Positions 12,310 to 64,000 of a DNA stretch of 64,000 nucleotides are shown piece by piece. The notes below the pieces were generated by a model. It was not told where the DNA came from, made no database searches, and saw only the letters and a program-made list of their open reading frames with translations. Location of the stretch: NCBI GenBank assembly GCA_030123625.1, contig CP126121.1, positions 2,830,179-2,894,178 on the forward strand. The letters are read 5' to 3'. Numbering within the stretch: position 1 is the first letter of the stretch; every line of letters starts with the position of its first letter. Origin of the DNA: Nitrospira sp. Its GTDB lineage: Bacteria; Nitrospirota; Nitrospiria; Nitrospirales; Nitrospiraceae. The translations under genes were made by a program, and so were the position numbers.

Positions 12310-12365
12310 CGTTATGGAAGTGGTTCGCTGTTTTCTGGAGAGAGATCAGTTTGACGTGCGCGGCA

Positions 12366-12663
12366 TCAATACCTCGTTGCCGTAGCTGCGGCGCAAGCGC
12401 GGCATGGACGTTTTCATCCAGGTAGAATATCAGCGGGATGGCGGCGTCTTCCCGTGTTGGTATGCCTGCGTCTCGTGCTGGATTTCAAGTTCGATTTCCG
12501 CGAGATGATCATAGGCATAACTGAGCGCATCATGGATTTGAGCGTGGGTGAGGTGGGGATAAGCTTGCCGAATGGTCTCCACGGTATCTCCATCCTGCGT
12601 CCGCTGATAAATATGACGGACTGGAATGCGGGTGCCGACAATGACGGGATCACACGCAGAGGC
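12366..12663 (-). pseudogene. Decayed copy of the DUF433/DUF5615 toxin-antitoxin pair
   Basis: Highly similar to 16100-16400. The DUF433 reading frame is open from about 12663 to its stop at 12430-12432 (GTRIPVRHIYQRTQDGDTVE) but its first 20 or so residues are gone, a stop lying just upstream. The DUF5615 gene survives only as its N-terminus (FYLDENVHAALAPQLRQRGI), starting in the same CTGA overlap and ending in unrelated sequence near 12366. The copy is truncated at both ends and is not functional. The rest of the 12310-12762 gap shows nothing else. Confidence 0.8.
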
Positions 12664-15833: not shown

Positions 15834-16166
15834 TCAGAGAAATCGAAGTGTGTTCGCCAGTTCTTCAGCAGTAGTAGTCTCATGGAGAGCGATCAGGCGT
15901 GTGAGCAGCGTGCCGATGGGTCGCACCGGCGTCACGACAATCCCCGCATGGGGTCTGTCCTCAGCCAGATAGGATCGGTGCAGCGTCACAAAGTGACTGA
16001 TGTTGTGTGTGACAAGAACACGTCCTTGGGCCGCGGCTTCTTGAAGGACAACCATGTCCGTGGAGCCTTGTCGCTGGAGGTCATAGACGCTGCAAGCATC
16101 AATACCTCGTTGCCGCAGCTGCGGCGCAAGCGCGGCATGCACGTTTTCATCCAGGTAAAAGATCAG
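15834..16166 (-). CDS. DUF5615 PIN-like toxin with probable CTG start
   Basis: About 110 aa: FYLDENVHAALAPQLRQRGI, then SVYDLQRQGSTDMVVLQEAA and GRVLVTHNISHFVTLH, ending HAGIVVTP-like sequence. This is the DUF5615 PIN-like nuclease pattern, in which the N-terminal D-E-N and later T-H-N matter. The D-E-N lies upstream of every in-frame ATG, GTG or TTG. The only sensible start is CTG 16166, whose CTGA overlaps the antitoxin stop. A GTG at 16142 would delete the conserved residues. It is coupled to the upstream DUF433 gene and is probably its toxin. Confidence 0.8.
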   Translation of the reverse strand: MIFYLDENVHAALAPQLRQRGIDACSVYDLQRQGSTDMVVLQEAAAQGRVLVTHNISHFVTLHRSYLAEDRPHAGIVVTPVRPIGTLLTRLIALHETTTAEELANTLRFL

Positions 16167-16447
16167 CGGGATGGCGGTGTCTTTCCGTGCTGGTATGCCT
16201 GTGTCTCTCGCTGGATTTCCAGTTCGATTTCCGAGAGGTGATCATAGGCATAGCTGAGCGCATCATGGATTTGAGCGTGGGTTAGGTTCGGATAGGCTTG
16301 CCGGATGGTCTCGATGGTCTCTCCATCCTGTGTCCGCTGATAAATAAGACGGACTGGAATACGGGTGCCCGCAATGACGGGATCCCCCCCGCAAACCGCG
16401 AGATCTTTGTGGACGTAACGATGTTCAGTCTTCACCGCCTGGGGCAT
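16163..16447 (-). CDS. DUF433 antitoxin
   Basis: 94 aa with the DUF433 signature: VCGGDPVIAGTRIPVRLIYQ followed by IRQAYPNLTHAQIHDALSYA and YDHLSEIELEIQRE. This small winged-helix-like domain is the usual antitoxin partner of DUF5615 nucleases. It starts at ATG 16447, with a short A/T-rich leader upstream, and its stop overlaps the toxin start. A nearly identical decayed copy lies at 12430-12663. Confidence 0.88.
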   Translation of the reverse strand: MPQAVKTEHRYVHKDLAVCGGDPVIAGTRIPVRLIYQRTQDGETIETIRQAYPNLTHAQIHDALSYAYDHLSEIELEIQRETQAYQHGKTPPSR

Positions 16448-58110: not shown

Positions 58111-59217
58111 ATGAATAAGCCGCTTCCCCAGCAGCGTGCTCGGCGGAACCAGCCGACGTCCGGAGCGACGAGCGTCGCGATTATCGGGGCCGGTCGCGGG
58201 GGCACCGCGCTGATGGAGATTTTCGCGAATGATCCGTTGGTGCAGATCGTCGGTGTTGCCGAACGTGATCCGAAAGCGCCGGGTTTGGGATTGGCCAAAC
58301 AGCTCAACATCCCGATTACACGCGATTATCGACAACTGTTGGCGATGGAGCGTGTCGATCTGATCATCGATGTCTCTGGTGATGGGGAAGTCTGGCAGTT
58401 CCTCCAGGATTTTCATCGTATGGGTGTCACCATCATCGGCGGCGCCAGCGCCAAGTTCATGTGGGAACTGATCGAAGCCCGCATTCGCGCGACGGCGGAG
58501 ATTGAGAAGACGCTGAACAAGTATCAATCCCTCTATCGATTGTACGTCAAAGAGACCGGCGCCGCGGTGACGGAAGAGCGGACCAGAATCGCCTGCGAGA
58601 TCCACGACGGACTCGTGCAGAGCCTGGCGGGCGTGAACTTCAAGCTGGACCTCTGTCAGCAACTTATTCGGAAAAATCCACGCGCCAGTTTAACGACCCT
58701 CAAGGAGAGCAAGGCTCAACTGAAGCTGGCCATACAGGAAGCCCGCCAAGTGATCTTCAACCTGCGGCCCCTGCACTACGACAAGATGGAATTGATTCCC
58801 GCCCTCACCAATTATTTCAAGTCGTACCAGACCCAAACCCACATTGCCACGAAGTTTTCGGTCACGGGGGATGAACAGATTCTCTTCCCGCGAACAAAAA
58901 TCTTTCTGTTCCGAATCATTCAAGAAGCCTTGAGCAACGTTGAAAAGCATGCCAAAGCCGACCGAGTCTCGATCAAATTGGACATCGATATGGATCTGTT
59001 GCGCGTGACGATTTCCGATAATGGAATCGGCTTCGATCTGGAAGCCGTTCTGCGTGACCCGGAAAAGTGGGATCATTTCGGCATCAAGGGTATCCTGGAG
59101 CGAGCCCGCTTGGTGGGCGGCGAGGGGCACGTCCAATCCAAACCGGGGAAAGGCACGAAAATCATCGTTGAGGTGCCGTTGGGTCACAAGGAGGAGAGAG
59201 GGAATGGAGAAAATTAA
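58111..59217 (+). CDS. Sensor histidine kinase with N-terminal Rossmann NAD-binding domain
   Basis: 368 aa. Residues 22-120 form a Rossmann unit: VAIIGAGRGGTALMEIFAND (GxGxxG at 26-31), VGVAERDPKAPGLGLAKQLN and VDLIIDVSGDGEVWQFLQDF. A coiled linker (125-150) leads to a HisKA_3 domain (TRIACEIHDGLVQSLAGV, His165), then an HATPase (IIQEALSNVEKHA, DNGIGFD, GTKIIVEVP). No transmembrane segment: a soluble NarL-type kinase. The Rossmann domain suggests NAD(P)(H) or nucleotide sensing. The adjoining response regulator overlaps its 3' end by 14 bp. Confidence 0.92.
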   Translation: MNKPLPQQRARRNQPTSGATSVAIIGAGRGGTALMEIFANDPLVQIVGVAERDPKAPGLGLAKQLNIPITRDYRQLLAMERVDLIIDVSGDGEVWQFLQDFHRMGVTIIGGASAKFMWELIEARIRATAEIEKTLNKYQSLYRLYVKETGAAVTEERTRIACEIHDGLVQSLAGVNFKLDLCQQLIRKNPRASLTTLKESKAQLKLAIQEARQVIFNLRPLHYDKMELIPALTNYFKSYQTQTHIATKFSVTGDEQILFPRTKIFLFRIIQEALSNVEKHAKADRVSIKLDIDMDLLRVTISDNGIGFDLEAVLRDPEKWDHFGIKGILERARLVGGEGHVQSKPGKGTKIIVEVPLGHKEERGNGEN

Positions 59218-59875
59218 GGTTCTGATCGCCGACGACCATCGGGTGGTTCGGGAAGGCTTGGCCGCTATTCTCAAGACCAAGGAAGACATTCACGTCATCG
59301 GCGAAGCTCAAGACGGAACGGAAGCGGTGGAAAAAGCCCGGGCGCTGCTCCCCGATGTGATTCTCATGGATGTGAGCATGCCGAGGATGGGCGGCGTCGA
59401 GGCGACGAGACAAATCAAGCGCGAGTTTCCGCATATCGGGATCGTTGCGTTGACCATGTATGAAGAACAACAGTACATCTTCGATCTTGTCCGCGCGGGA
59501 GCGACAGGGTATCTCTTGAAAGATTCTGAATCGTCTCAGATCGTGGCGGCCATTCGTGCCATCTATCGGGGCGAATCGCTGATCCATCCGTCCGTTGCCA
59601 GTAAAATCTTGGCGGAATTCTCCTTGATGGCCCAAAAGAAAGGCAAGAAGCCGGCGTGGGCCGAGCATGATCTGACCGATCGAGAGATTACGGTCTTGCG
59701 GCTGGTTGCGGACGGGAAAACCAACAAAGAGATCGCCAACAACCTCGATTTGAGCGAAAAGACGGTGAAGAACCACGTCCGGAACATCTTCCACAAACTA
59801 CAAGTGTACGACCGCACGCAAGCGGCCATCCTCGCCATCCGCAAAGGCCTGATCGAGTTGGATCCGAAGCGGTAG
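59204..59875 (+). CDS. NarL/FixJ-family response regulator
   Basis: 223 aa. Receiver domain with phosphoacceptor in ILMDVSMPRMGG (Asp near residue 54), Lys in YLLKD, and LuxR HTH LTDREITVLRLVADGKTNKE, IANNLDLSEKTVKNHVRNIF. The start ATG 59204 lies within the kinase gene, giving a 14-bp overlap and coupled expression. Cognate regulator of the Rossmann-fused kinase; target genes unknown. Confidence 0.94.
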   Translation: MEKIKVLIADDHRVVREGLAAILKTKEDIHVIGEAQDGTEAVEKARALLPDVILMDVSMPRMGGVEATRQIKREFPHIGIVALTMYEEQQYIFDLVRAGATGYLLKDSESSQIVAAIRAIYRGESLIHPSVASKILAEFSLMAQKKGKKPAWAEHDLTDREITVLRLVADGKTNKEIANNLDLSEKTVKNHVRNIFHKLQVYDRTQAAILAIRKGLIELDPKR

Positions 59876-59908: not shown

Positions 59909-60278
59909 CTAGAACGATCGGTTCACCGTGATGCGATAGATCTGCGGACTTCCATCCTGCGCGATCACGGTGATCGGCACATCGATGCTTGCGCCCTGCA
60001 AGGGGACAGTCACCTGACCTGTAGGGACCCCTGACGGTGCAATCACCGACCCCGACGCGGACATCACGGCATTCGGATCCTGCTTGGTCGCGGAGATCGT
60101 CATACTGGGTGTGAAGCCGTTGACGTTCACCGTATAGTTCAGTGTAGTCGGAGCAAAGGAAGGGGTCAGGCTGCCTACTGACACGGTCAACCTGGACAGC
60201 TTGTTGTTGGAGGAGGCAGCTCTGTGGATGGTGAGGCTGTAGGTCTTGCTGCTTCCATTCGGGGCGGTCATCGTGATC
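59909..60278. repeat. 370-bp segment duplicated at 61385-61754 (copy 1)
   Basis: Matches 61385-61754 with three differences in 370 bp, each in a silent codon position. It covers the last domain of the cadherin-like gene and its stop codon. Confidence 0.95.
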
Positions 60279-60931
60279 AACACGGAGGTGTCTGTTCCTG
60301 GCCCATTCAACGGGATGGTGTCTTGACCTGAGGCCGTGCCGGCCGGGACAGTCACTGAATGGAGGTGCATCACGGCATCCGGATCTGATTTCGTCGCGGC
60401 GACGGTGACGCTGGTGACGTCTGTAACCACGTCCACTGTGTAGGCCGAGGTGCTCGGAGTAAAGCCCGGAACCAAGGTGCCGGATGTTACAGTCAGTGCA
60501 GCTAAGTCGTTGTTGCCCGCTAACGCCGCTCTATTGACGGTGATGGTGTAGGTACTCTGGCTCCCGCTCTGCGACGTCAACAGGATGATGATGGCTTTGC
60601 TCGATGGCGGCGCTTCGAGTGTAACCTGAAGGCTCTGGGTCGCTGTTCCAGCGATCGTGACGCTTGACGTGCTGTCTTGAGGGGTGGCCGTTACCGTGAC
60701 AGTGCCGACTGCCGTTGGCACATTCGCTACATAATTGACGGTGTCGCTCGAAAAAGCCGGCTGAAGCGATCCGGGATTGATCGTCAAATCGGCGAGCCGA
60801 ACTTGCGGACCCTCCGAGATCGATGCGGAGTCACCGCAACCAGAGGAAATGATGCCCATTATGGCAAGAACGATAACGGCTATGCATTGTTCGGCAACGG
60901 TAAGCGTGCGACTCAGGGCGATATCCGTCAT
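59909..60931 (-). CDS. Cadherin-like beta-sandwich lipoprotein
   Basis: 340 aa. Hydrophobic leader ending IISSGCGDS, a lipobox-like site, then three cadherin-like beta-sandwich domains (PF12733-like), each having a LSxLTVxxGxLxPxF...YTVxV signature. The C-terminal 122 residues are identical to those of the next gene. Start ATG 60931 is preferred because it precedes the leader; the open frame continues to 61372. Probably a surface or periplasmic adhesion/scaffold protein. Confidence 0.82.
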   Translation of the reverse strand: MTDIALSRTLTVAEQCIAVIVLAIMGIISSGCGDSASISEGPQVRLADLTINPGSLQPAFSSDTVNYVANVPTAVGTVTVTATPQDSTSSVTIAGTATQSLQVTLEAPPSSKAIIILLTSQSGSQSTYTITVNRAALAGNNDLAALTVTSGTLVPGFTPSTSAYTVDVVTDVTSVTVAATKSDPDAVMHLHSVTVPAGTASGQDTIPLNGPGTDTSVLITMTAPNGSSKTYSLTIHRAASSNNKLSRLTVSVGSLTPSFAPTTLNYTVNVNGFTPSMTISATKQDPNAVMSASGSVIAPSGVPTGQVTVPLQGASIDVPITVIAQDGSPQIYRITVNRSF

Positions 60932-61384
60932 TTTCTTTGGTGCATGGAACGATCGTTTGTTCTGATGAACCCAAATGGTAGGTGCCAAGGCTACGAGAGG
61001 GTTCAAAATTGGATTATCATGGCTCGTGTAAAGTCGAGCAGCAATCCTCATATAGCTGATCGTACTGAGCGGGTCAACAGATGAAATGAACGGATATGAG
61101 TGCGTCAGCGCACGAGCCGCAATATCCTCGCCCGCATTATTCATGACGGTTCGTCGCGAATCGCGCAGTCGCATAGCGAGGTTCACGGCGCGAAGAATAA
61201 TGAGCGCCACGTTTGTGGACGCCGCCGAGTTGGTGAGGCGGCGGTGTCTTGCACGCGGAGTCCTGAGAGACCTCGGCGTACTTGAAACAGTACGTCGAGG
61301 TCGCGAGAGGCGAGCCTGTCCGCCGAAGGCTTGTCGCAGCAGCGAATCCGCGATTGCAGCAGAAATGTTCATGAATAATGCGGG
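60932..61384. other. Intergenic region with an inverted repeat
   Basis: Between the two cadherin-like genes. A 12-bp stem (61271-61282 with 61289-61300, one mismatch) with a 6-nt loop lies in a Gly/Arg-coding-like, GC-rich stretch. The longest frame, 61086-61388, looks like noise. The region may be a REP-like or recombination-prone element. Confidence 0.5.
61271..61300. repeat. Imperfect inverted repeat (12 bp)
   Basis: CCTCGGCGTACT and AGTACGTCGAGG, one mismatch, loop TGAAAC. It could be a REP-like unit or part of a mobile relic between two paralogous genes. Confidence 0.55.
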
Positions 61385-61754
61385 CTAGAATGATCGGTTC
61401 ACCGTGATGCGATAGATCTGCGGACTTCCATCCTGCGCGATCACGGTGATCGGCACATCGATGCTTGCGCCCTGCAAGGGGACAGTCACCTGACCTGTAG
61501 GGACCCCTGACGGTGCAATCACCGACCCCGACGCGGACATCACGGCATTCGGATCCTGCTTGGTCGCGGAGATCGTCATACTGGGTGTGAAGCCGTTGAC
61601 GTTCACCGTATAGTTCAGTGTAGTCGGAGCAAAGGAGGGGGTCAGGCTGCCTACTGACACGGTCAACCTGGACAGCTTGTTGTTGGAGGAGGCAGCTCTG
61701 TGGATGGTGAGGCTGTAGGTCTTGCTGCTCCCATTCGGGGCGGTCATCGTGATC
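61385..61754. repeat. 370-bp segment duplicated at 59909-60278 (copy 2)
   Basis: Second copy of the duplicated segment, with the stop codon included. Differences from copy 1 are silent. Confidence 0.95.
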
Positions 61755-62989
61755 GATGCCTGGGTAGTCGTCCCCGGCGCGCCGAGCGGAAGGGTAGCTT
61801 CTCCCCTTGGCGTTCCTGTCCCGGCCGTCACTGAACCCGACATCACGGCATCCGGATCGGATTTGGCTGCAGCAACCGCCACTTCGGTGACGTCGGTCGC
61901 CACCTCCACTGTATAGGCCGTGGTGCTTCGAACAAAGTCCGGAATTAAGGTGCCTGGCGTTACAGTCAATGCCGACAGATTGTTGTCGCTGGAAGGGGCT
62001 GCCCGTTCGATATCGATGCGATATGTTTTTGAGTTTCCATTCTGGGCCGTCACCGTGACCTCTACCTGAGTGGTGGTCCCAGGACCGCCGAGTTGAATGG
62101 TCGCTTGTCCTTCATTCGGCACATCACCCGATATCACGGCATTCGGATCCGCCTTGGTTGCGGAAACGGTGACGCTGGTGACCTTCGTTCCCACGTCCAC
62201 CGTGTAGTTGCGGGTTCCCGCTGCAAAGCGTGGAGTCAACGTGCCGGGTTCCACCTTCAAGGCCGATAGATCGTTGTTGCCGGAGGCGGCTCTCTGTATG
62301 GTGATGCTGTAGGTCTTGCTGCTTCCATTCGGAGCGGTCACGGTGAGCGATAACATTTTACTTGTTCCTGGTCCGTCCAGCGCGATCGTCGCTTGTCCCG
62401 TGGGAACGCCGGCGGCGGCGGTCATAGAACCAGATATCACGGCGTCCGGATCGGACTTGGTCGCGGAAACCGTGACGGTGGTGACGTCAGTCGCCACGTC
62501 AACCGTGTAGGTCAACTTGTTCGGAGCAAAGGAAGGGTCCAAGGAGCCCGATGTGACGCTCAAGGCCGACAGATTGTTGTCGCTCGATAAGAGTCTCGTG
62601 ACGGTGACGGTATAGGCGCCCTCACCCCCGGTCTGTGACGACAAGGCGATGGTGATGGTGGCGGTGGATCCCGGCGGGCCTAGGGGGACAGACCGTCCCT
62701 GCCCTGCAGCGGTTGAAACTCCATTGATCGTCATCGTAGTCGTGCTGTCTGTAGGCGCGGCCGTCACAGTGACGCTGGTAGCGGCCGTAGGCGCATCGAC
62801 CGTGTAGGTCGAGATATTGCTGGAAAACGCTGGCTGGAGGGTGCCGGGGGTGACCGCCAAACTGGAGAGCGGTACCTGAGGCGCGTTCGAAACCGACACG
62901 CTGTCCCCGCAGCTGTAAGAACTCAGACCGATGGAGACGGCGAGGGCGGCAGTCCACCATGGTCCCATAAAAGCCAGAACGCGTTTCAT
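61385..62989 (-). CDS. Cadherin-like beta-sandwich lipoprotein, larger paralog
   Basis: 534 aa. Leader (FMGPWWTAALAVSIGLSS) ending YSCGDS, then five cadherin-like domains. Sequence blocks like NNLSALTVTPGTLIPDF repeat along the protein. The last domain is identical in sequence to that of the neighbour at 59909-60931. Start ATG 62989 is preferred to one at 63004. Probably a surface-exposed scaffold; binding partner unknown. Confidence 0.82.
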   Translation of the reverse strand: MKRVLAFMGPWWTAALAVSIGLSSYSCGDSVSVSNAPQVPLSSLAVTPGTLQPAFSSNISTYTVDAPTAATSVTVTAAPTDSTTTMTINGVSTAAGQGRSVPLGPPGSTATITIALSSQTGGEGAYTVTVTRLLSSDNNLSALSVTSGSLDPSFAPNKLTYTVDVATDVTTVTVSATKSDPDAVISGSMTAAAGVPTGQATIALDGPGTSKMLSLTVTAPNGSSKTYSITIQRAASGNNDLSALKVEPGTLTPRFAAGTRNYTVDVGTKVTSVTVSATKADPNAVISGDVPNEGQATIQLGGPGTTTQVEVTVTAQNGNSKTYRIDIERAAPSSDNNLSALTVTPGTLIPDFVRSTTAYTVEVATDVTEVAVAAAKSDPDAVMSGSVTAGTGTPRGEATLPLGAPGTTTQASITMTAPNGSSKTYSLTIHRAASSNNKLSRLTVSVGSLTPSFAPTTLNYTVNVNGFTPSMTISATKQDPNAVMSASGSVIAPSGVPTGQVTVPLQGASIDVPITVIAQDGSPQIYRITVNRSF

Positions 62990-63237
62990 TGTGGCGCACA
63001 TCACTGTCCCTATGCGTATGGAGTCGAGGGCACTCTGTTCTGGGGAACCAAAACGCTAGGTAATGGAGACTACGAGATGGTCCAGACGCTACAGAGGCTA
63101 AGTAGGCGCTAAAGGTATAACCAATACAATCGGCGAGGTCAAGACTTCAAATCGAGATGCGGTGGACCGATGTGCGTGCATTCAACACGGTCGCACCGAT
63201 GTCGCCGGCGGCATGCCCGAGTATGGCATCCCTGGGA

Positions 63238-64000
63238 TTACGGGAATCCGGGGGCTATCGTGTCGATGGTCACAGGCAAGGGTGGACTCTGGGAAGACTC
63301 ACCCCCGGCATTGGTCACCGTACTGGTAATCGTATGGTCACCGTCGCTCAATGCAGACGTTGGCTTCAGGGTGTTGGCTCCCTGATTGAAGGTCGAATCA
63401 ACTTTGTTCCCATCTACATAGAGGTTCGGAGTTTCTCCCGAGCCAGGCTGGGATATTCTGAATCTTGGTGTGTTGACATTAGTGATGTTGTCGGAATCCT
63501 GGCCAGGAAGGAATCCAGAGTCATCCTGCGGGATCAAATCCGGCGCACTCACCGGTGCGGGCGGCGCCGTGGGTGTTGCTCGGATAAGGTCGATGCTGTA
63601 TGTCTTTGAAGCTCCACTGGGCGCAGTGACGATAATAGATACCGGTGTGGTAGCCCCAGAGAGCGTAATGTTCGCCTGACCGCTATTAGGTACGTCCCCT
63701 GAAATCACCGCATTCGAGTCTGCCTTGGTCGCGGAGATAGCAACGCTTGTGACATCGCTCGCGACATTTACTGTGTAGCTCAGTGTGTCCGCAGCAAAGG
63801 CAGGAGACAAGGATCCGGGTGTTACGCTCAACGCCGACAGATTATTGTTGCTCGCGGGTGCTGCGCGGTGGATAGTGACGCGGTACTCCTGTGGGGCTCC
63901 AGAGGGTGCCGTGACGATGATCGACACCGGTGTGTCTGAGTCTTGTCCGCCTAGTGTAACGGCTGCCTGTCCCGTGCGGGTCCCTGCTGGGACCGTGACG
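63238..64000 (-). CDS. Cadherin-like and Ig-like surface protein, 5' part beyond the window
   Basis: C-terminal part of a larger gene, open through the right edge. At least two cadherin-like domains (NNLSALSVTPGSLSPAF and so on) are followed by a Pro-rich linker and an Ig-like beta domain with DGDHTITSTVTNAGGESSQS, ending TIDTIAPGFP. The terminal domain resembles Big/BapA-type prefix repeats. It is a third member of the array; its start and any leader lie outside. Confidence 0.8.
   Translation of the reverse strand, partial: VTVPAGTRTGQAAVTLGGQDSDTPVSIIVTAPSGAPQEYRVTIHRAAPASNNNLSALSVTPGSLSPAFAADTLSYTVNVASDVTSVAISATKADSNAVISGDVPNSGQANITLSGATTPVSIIVTAPSGASKTYSIDLIRATPTAPPAPVSAPDLIPQDDSGFLPGQDSDNITNVNTPRFRISQPGSGETPNLYVDGNKVDSTFNQGANTLKPTSALSDGDHTITSTVTNAGGESSQSPPLPVTIDTIAPGFP

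Follow-up and report, generated by a model that had tools for sequence, protein, structure and literature searches.

A block of 370 bp that is nearly identical in two adjacent, directly repeated lipoprotein genes of a Nitrospira-type genome, here designated p1 and p2, is very probably the footprint of recent gene conversion between them. It had been originally predicted, for the window (the whole stretch of 64,000 nucleotides that was analyzed), that positions 59909-60278 and 61385-61754 match at 367 of 370 positions with synonymous changes only. Base-by-base comparison identified exactly three mismatches, 59915 (C/T), 60161 (A/G) and 60254 (T/C), all of which were synonymous (S, P and G), and the translation of both copies gave the same 122 residues.

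The genome is a single contig of 4.69 Mb (4,691,675 bases), and the two copies of the block are located 1,476 bases apart. They belong to a minus-strand tandem array of four predicted lipoprotein genes (p1, p2, p3 and p4) built from Cadherin-like (PF12733) domains, of which each protein contains three to seven according to the domain limits given by hmmsearch. Relatives were sampled as one genome per species, with G000 denoting the genome under study and G054 its nearest relative, a Nitrospira MAG (GZL_ISSM_2_bin.53). The features of the locus are as follows.

58111..59217, plus strand: sensor kinase-like gene, the syntenic anchor adjoining the array, present in 74 of 79 genomes of the genus
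59204..59875, plus strand: response-regulator-like gene (from the ORF list), convergent with p1, with identical gene order in G054
59909..60931, minus strand: p1, predicted lipoprotein of 340 aa with three PF12733 domains (E 2e-43, three stretches) and lipobox SSGC; probable donor
59909..60278, minus strand: block copy A, comprising the end of the second Cadherin-like domain, the whole third domain and the stop codon of p1; 367/370 identical to copy B
61127..61130: left flank CTCG of the element, presumably a target duplication of CTAG in which one base has changed; the right-hand copy at 61385-61388 reads CTAG
61130..61385, no strand assigned: MITE-like element of 256 bp with 17-bp terminal inverted repeats GCCCGCATTATTCATGA, in the CTAG overlapping the p2 stop codon
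61178..61252, no strand assigned: inner part of the element that belongs to a second repeat family and is lacking in shorter copies
61385..61754, minus strand: block copy B, comprising the end of domain 4, the whole domain 5 and the stop codon of p2; 367/370 identical to copy A
61385..63004, minus strand: p2, predicted lipoprotein of at most 539 aa with five PF12733 domains (E 2.9e-70, five stretches); probable recipient
63238..64000 and beyond the window end (L008:5417-7963), minus strand: p3, the 3' part of which lies in the window; 848 aa, seven PF12733 domains and Big_13
L008:8310-9656, minus strand: p4, the fourth array gene

In all 19 of the examined relatives' loci that hold the kinase gene, the first array gene adjoins it. 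All array proteins are strings of PF12733, well above the Pfam cut-off of 24.2 (bit scores of 147.2 for p1, 233.2 for p2 and 69.7 for the p3 fragment); the domain defines the protein type and is silent on exchange between genes. A lipobox-like motif with its Cys precedes the first domain in all four genes, and the array proteins are predicted to be cell-surface lipoproteins. The earlier description of the locus as a surface-protein array thus stood with regard to an array of four lipoprotein genes, while its surface label is a prediction based on the lipoboxes and the domain type. The longer version of p1 reported by the ORF caller (59909-61372) begins within the mobile element and is to be disregarded, as the true start of p1 is most likely the ATG at 60931, which has its own lipobox. 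Structure prediction for p1 from a three-row alignment gave a mean pLDDT of 44.

Promoter and terminator scans of the array returned fewer sites than were found in shuffled sequence. A motif upstream of p1, ATCTGTTGACCCGC (61068-61082), is conserved ahead of array genes in several relatives and may be a promoter or a regulator-binding sequence, although the consensus scan did not report it. Repeats were also observed elsewhere: p3 contains a 309-bp tandem repeat in 3.3 copies at 95% (L008:5938-6964), indicating that whole domains are also duplicated inside one gene, p3 of G077 contains a 320-bp repeat pair at 100%, with similar cases in G057 and G060, and a second direct repeat in the window (12363-12651 and 16096-16384) is 289 bp long at 91%.

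The borders of the block are sharp. In the gene sense, identity per 50 bases falls at the 5' border from 49-50 to 33 and then to 31, and this border is located within a conserved segment, APNGSSKTYSLTIHR, with which the penultimate domain closes. On its downstream side, the block stops exactly at the stop codon of each gene, directly past which identity is 9 per 50 bases, and p1 and p2 share nothing beyond it. Mismatches occupy 77 of the 591 columns in an alignment of the last two domains, but only 3 of 366 in the block; none of 20,000 column shuffles of these two domains matched the observed run of 367 columns with at most three mismatches, the longest shuffled run being 151. The divergence originally noted for the rest of the proteins was likewise found, in that p1 and p2 differ by dS 0.033 and dN 0 in the block versus dS 1.16 and dN 0.33 in the domain just upstream. 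No further copy of the block was found elsewhere in the genome. The silence of all three changes says little alone, because silent and replacement changes in the block stand at 15:12 between species, a ratio at which three of three silent changes are expected by chance about one time in six.

Comparison with related genomes, which had been proposed as a check, indicated that the first domain follows orthology and the last domain follows the genome, in a sample of one genome per species. Each of the three p1 domains has its best match in another species in p1 of G054 (87.5, 94.1 and 90.4% for domains 1, 2 and 3). Domains 1-4 of p2 correspond to the five-domain gene p2 of G031 and G077 (best values of 90, 81, 81 and 74%), whereas domain 5 of p2 matches p1 only and not p2 of G031 and G077. 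Of the two origins originally suggested, recent duplication or gene conversion, the latter is therefore favored, because the upstream parts have separate orthologues and the last domain pairs within the genome.

Phylogenetic trees of the two domains are in conflict. In the first-domain tree, where some of the neighbor genes form long branches, p1 and its neighbor gene are mostly apart, with 3 class changes; in the last-domain tree there are 10 p1/neighbor class changes, of which at least 5-6 are forced by starred branches, the neighbor class having been set by position and domain number, with a few genes possibly mis-assigned. A last-domain tree with p1 as one clade was rejected (p-AU 7e-78). 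In the last-domain tree, the p1 and neighbor sequences of G000 group with each other, as do those of G004, and p1 and neighbor genes are intermixed across a clade of seven species. Within genomes, the last domains of p1 and the neighbor differ by dS 0.03 (G000), 0.09 (G004) and 0.20 (G078), versus dS 0.94 to 2.1 for the first domains of those pairs (2.06 in G004); the last domain differs from its nearest orthologue by dS of at least 0.24 in G004 and by dS 0.22 in G078. Near-identical tracts in G004 (348 bp) and G078 (298 bp) also reach the gene ends. Since the same gene pair has a common last domain in other Nitrospira species, exchange between p1 and its neighbor is recurrent and represents concerted evolution of one C-terminal domain.

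For the genome under study, it is proposed that a tract of at least 370 bp was copied non-reciprocally between p1 and p2 by homologous recombination, which, judging from known cases, would be of the RecA type. The tract would run from the conserved stretch closing the penultimate domain as far as the stop codon, beyond which homology is lost. Copying most likely proceeded from p1 into the five-domain p2, after which both proteins would carry the same C-terminal Cadherin-like domain; this direction is the most straightforward interpretation, in view of the unbroken correspondence between p1 and its orthologue on both sides of the block border. An older transfer from the neighbor into p1 is possible, since the shared last-domain type groups with neighbor genes of G064, G065 and G033 with moderate support (93/72 and 89/89). 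The five-domain gene is absent from the G054 assembly, in which a search yielded nothing outside the p1 contig. The conversion event is younger than the split from G054, because dS between the copies is 0.033 versus 0.18 between the block and p1 of G054, and the copying is roughly five times more recent than that split if rates were equal. Carrying a common last domain may be of some benefit.

The element next to the p2 stop codon resembles a MITE: it is short, non-coding and present in several copies, is bounded by terminal inverted repeats and flanked by a short CTAG target duplication, and contains no transposase gene. About 14 full or near-full copies, 186-317 bp long, are present in the genome, and other copies display flanks of the form CTA/G...C/TAG. 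The shorter copies give split matches (1-57 and 128-265) and are missing the 71-bp inner piece, which belongs to a commoner family with about 30 solo matches in the genome (positions 55-129 only). No autonomous partner was found in this genome, in that no pair of the terminal inverted repeats with at most 1 mismatch occurs at transposon length. In G054, a similar element occupies the same CTAG of p1 (L061:2695-2951; with flanks, L061:2693-2954), for which p1 of the genome under study represents the empty site. CTAG is scarce in the window, with 33 occurrences, and the coincidence of the same stop-codon site is worth noting.

The position of the element raises the possibility that the copying was initiated or carried by it, or by a break at its CTAG target, with block and element moving together from an element-bearing p1. 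One end of the element coincides exactly with the 3' limit of the block, the p1 site is occupied in G054, and one base (alignment column 238) is common to the p2 and G054 p1 copies and absent from the closest third copy. However, these two copies are 2.3% apart, which is far less than the divergence of the host genes (dS 0.33 for the kinase gene and 0.18 for the block), and an unrelated copy at 2463468 is only 1.2% from that of G054; these comparisons favor two young, independent insertions over a single element that was inherited or copied along with the block, while the tree of element copies gives no resolution on one versus two insertions. In addition, G004 and G078 have common gene ends and no element of this kind in their arrays. 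Involvement of the element in the copying is thus considered improbable. A tandem duplication of p1, followed by a linker deletion that joined upstream p2 sequence with the 3' part of the additional p1 copy and removed a three-domain gene, is regarded as an unlikely alternative, ranked just ahead of the element. Seven relatives (G052, G034, G004, G006, G015, G060 and G078) have a three-domain array gene that separates p1 from the five-domain gene. This gene is indicated upstream of p1 of G054 by flank similarity read by eye and is missing from the 60932-61129 interval between p1 and p2, and the junction is located in the conserved linker. The loss of this gene counts against conversion, which a multi-step rearrangement could mimic. 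Yet such a history needs a duplication, a fusion deletion and the disappearance of the 3' flank of p1, as neither p1 flank nor response-regulator flank follows the p2 stop codon, and the G004 and G078 pairs share their last domain while retaining the three-domain gene.

Near-identical repeats commonly cause assembly errors, and contigs of several relatives end in this array, so mis-resolution of a repeat, or polishing of its copies to identity, was considered. This explanation is very improbable, in that both copies lie at distinct places of one chromosome-size contig with different flanks and three base differences, one of them with the element, and independent genomes have the same pattern; a collapse of the assembly, which the original prediction had listed for exclusion by long reads, was accordingly rejected. 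Strong purifying selection, acting on a domain that is simply conserved and has undergone no recent exchange, would fit with three of three differences being silent but is scarcely credible, as silent sites are near-identical too. The best protein matches to the block domain are 54% in the same genome, 90% in the nearest other species and at most about 63% in all others, which leaves differences of 10% for the nearest species and of at least about 37% for the others. General domain conservation was therefore rejected, and the possibility raised in the original prediction, that the block is a conserved domain with the same identity everywhere, did not hold.

Gene conversion between p1 and p2 is closest in pattern to the babA/babB genes (and homA/homB) of Helicobacter pylori, in which orthology across strains is kept in the 5' and middle parts, while the two genes of one strain resemble each other in their 3' segments, a pattern attributed to concerted evolution by gene conversion that is likely RecA-dependent (PMC3960876). 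As in that case, p1 and p2 have conserved orthology upstream and within-genome likeness at the 3' end, with one segment far more alike within the genome and conflicting trees for the first and last domains. In contrast, babA and babB encode Hop-family outer-membrane adhesins, an unrelated family, and are located at separate loci rather than adjacent to each other, and the evidence for them is strain-level and experimental, while p1 and p2 were compared via one genome per species. Short segments are also copied between homologous surface-protein genes in antigenic variation at vlsE of Borrelia and pilE of Neisseria, where one expression site is served by silent cassettes. Unlike in those systems, p1 and p2 are complete genes with a start codon, a signal and a lipobox, and the outcome is homogenization rather than a diversified repertoire; no silent donor cassettes were found, each of the four array genes being a complete, lipobox-bearing ORF and the block being limited to its two copies. 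A literature search returned nothing relevant on Nitrospira with cadherin-like proteins or miniature inverted-repeat elements.

It is doubtful, though conceivable, that the array is an active exchange system, in which the C-terminal domains of adjacent surface lipoproteins are repeatedly swapped or equalized and insertions at the stop-codon CTAG mark or provoke exchange; if so, this could result, for example, in an altered or coordinated binding face seen by phages or partner cells. For annotators, such Nitrospira arrays are likely to break short-read assemblies and to mislead whole-protein orthology calls.

In conclusion, this array of predicted surface lipoproteins provides a genuine new case of gene conversion, a process already known, and one that is both recent and recurrent. 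A non-pathogenic nitrifying genus thereby joins the bacteria in which paralogues of predicted surface proteins are homogenized by gene conversion, and several of its species are affected at one and the same domain of these two genes.
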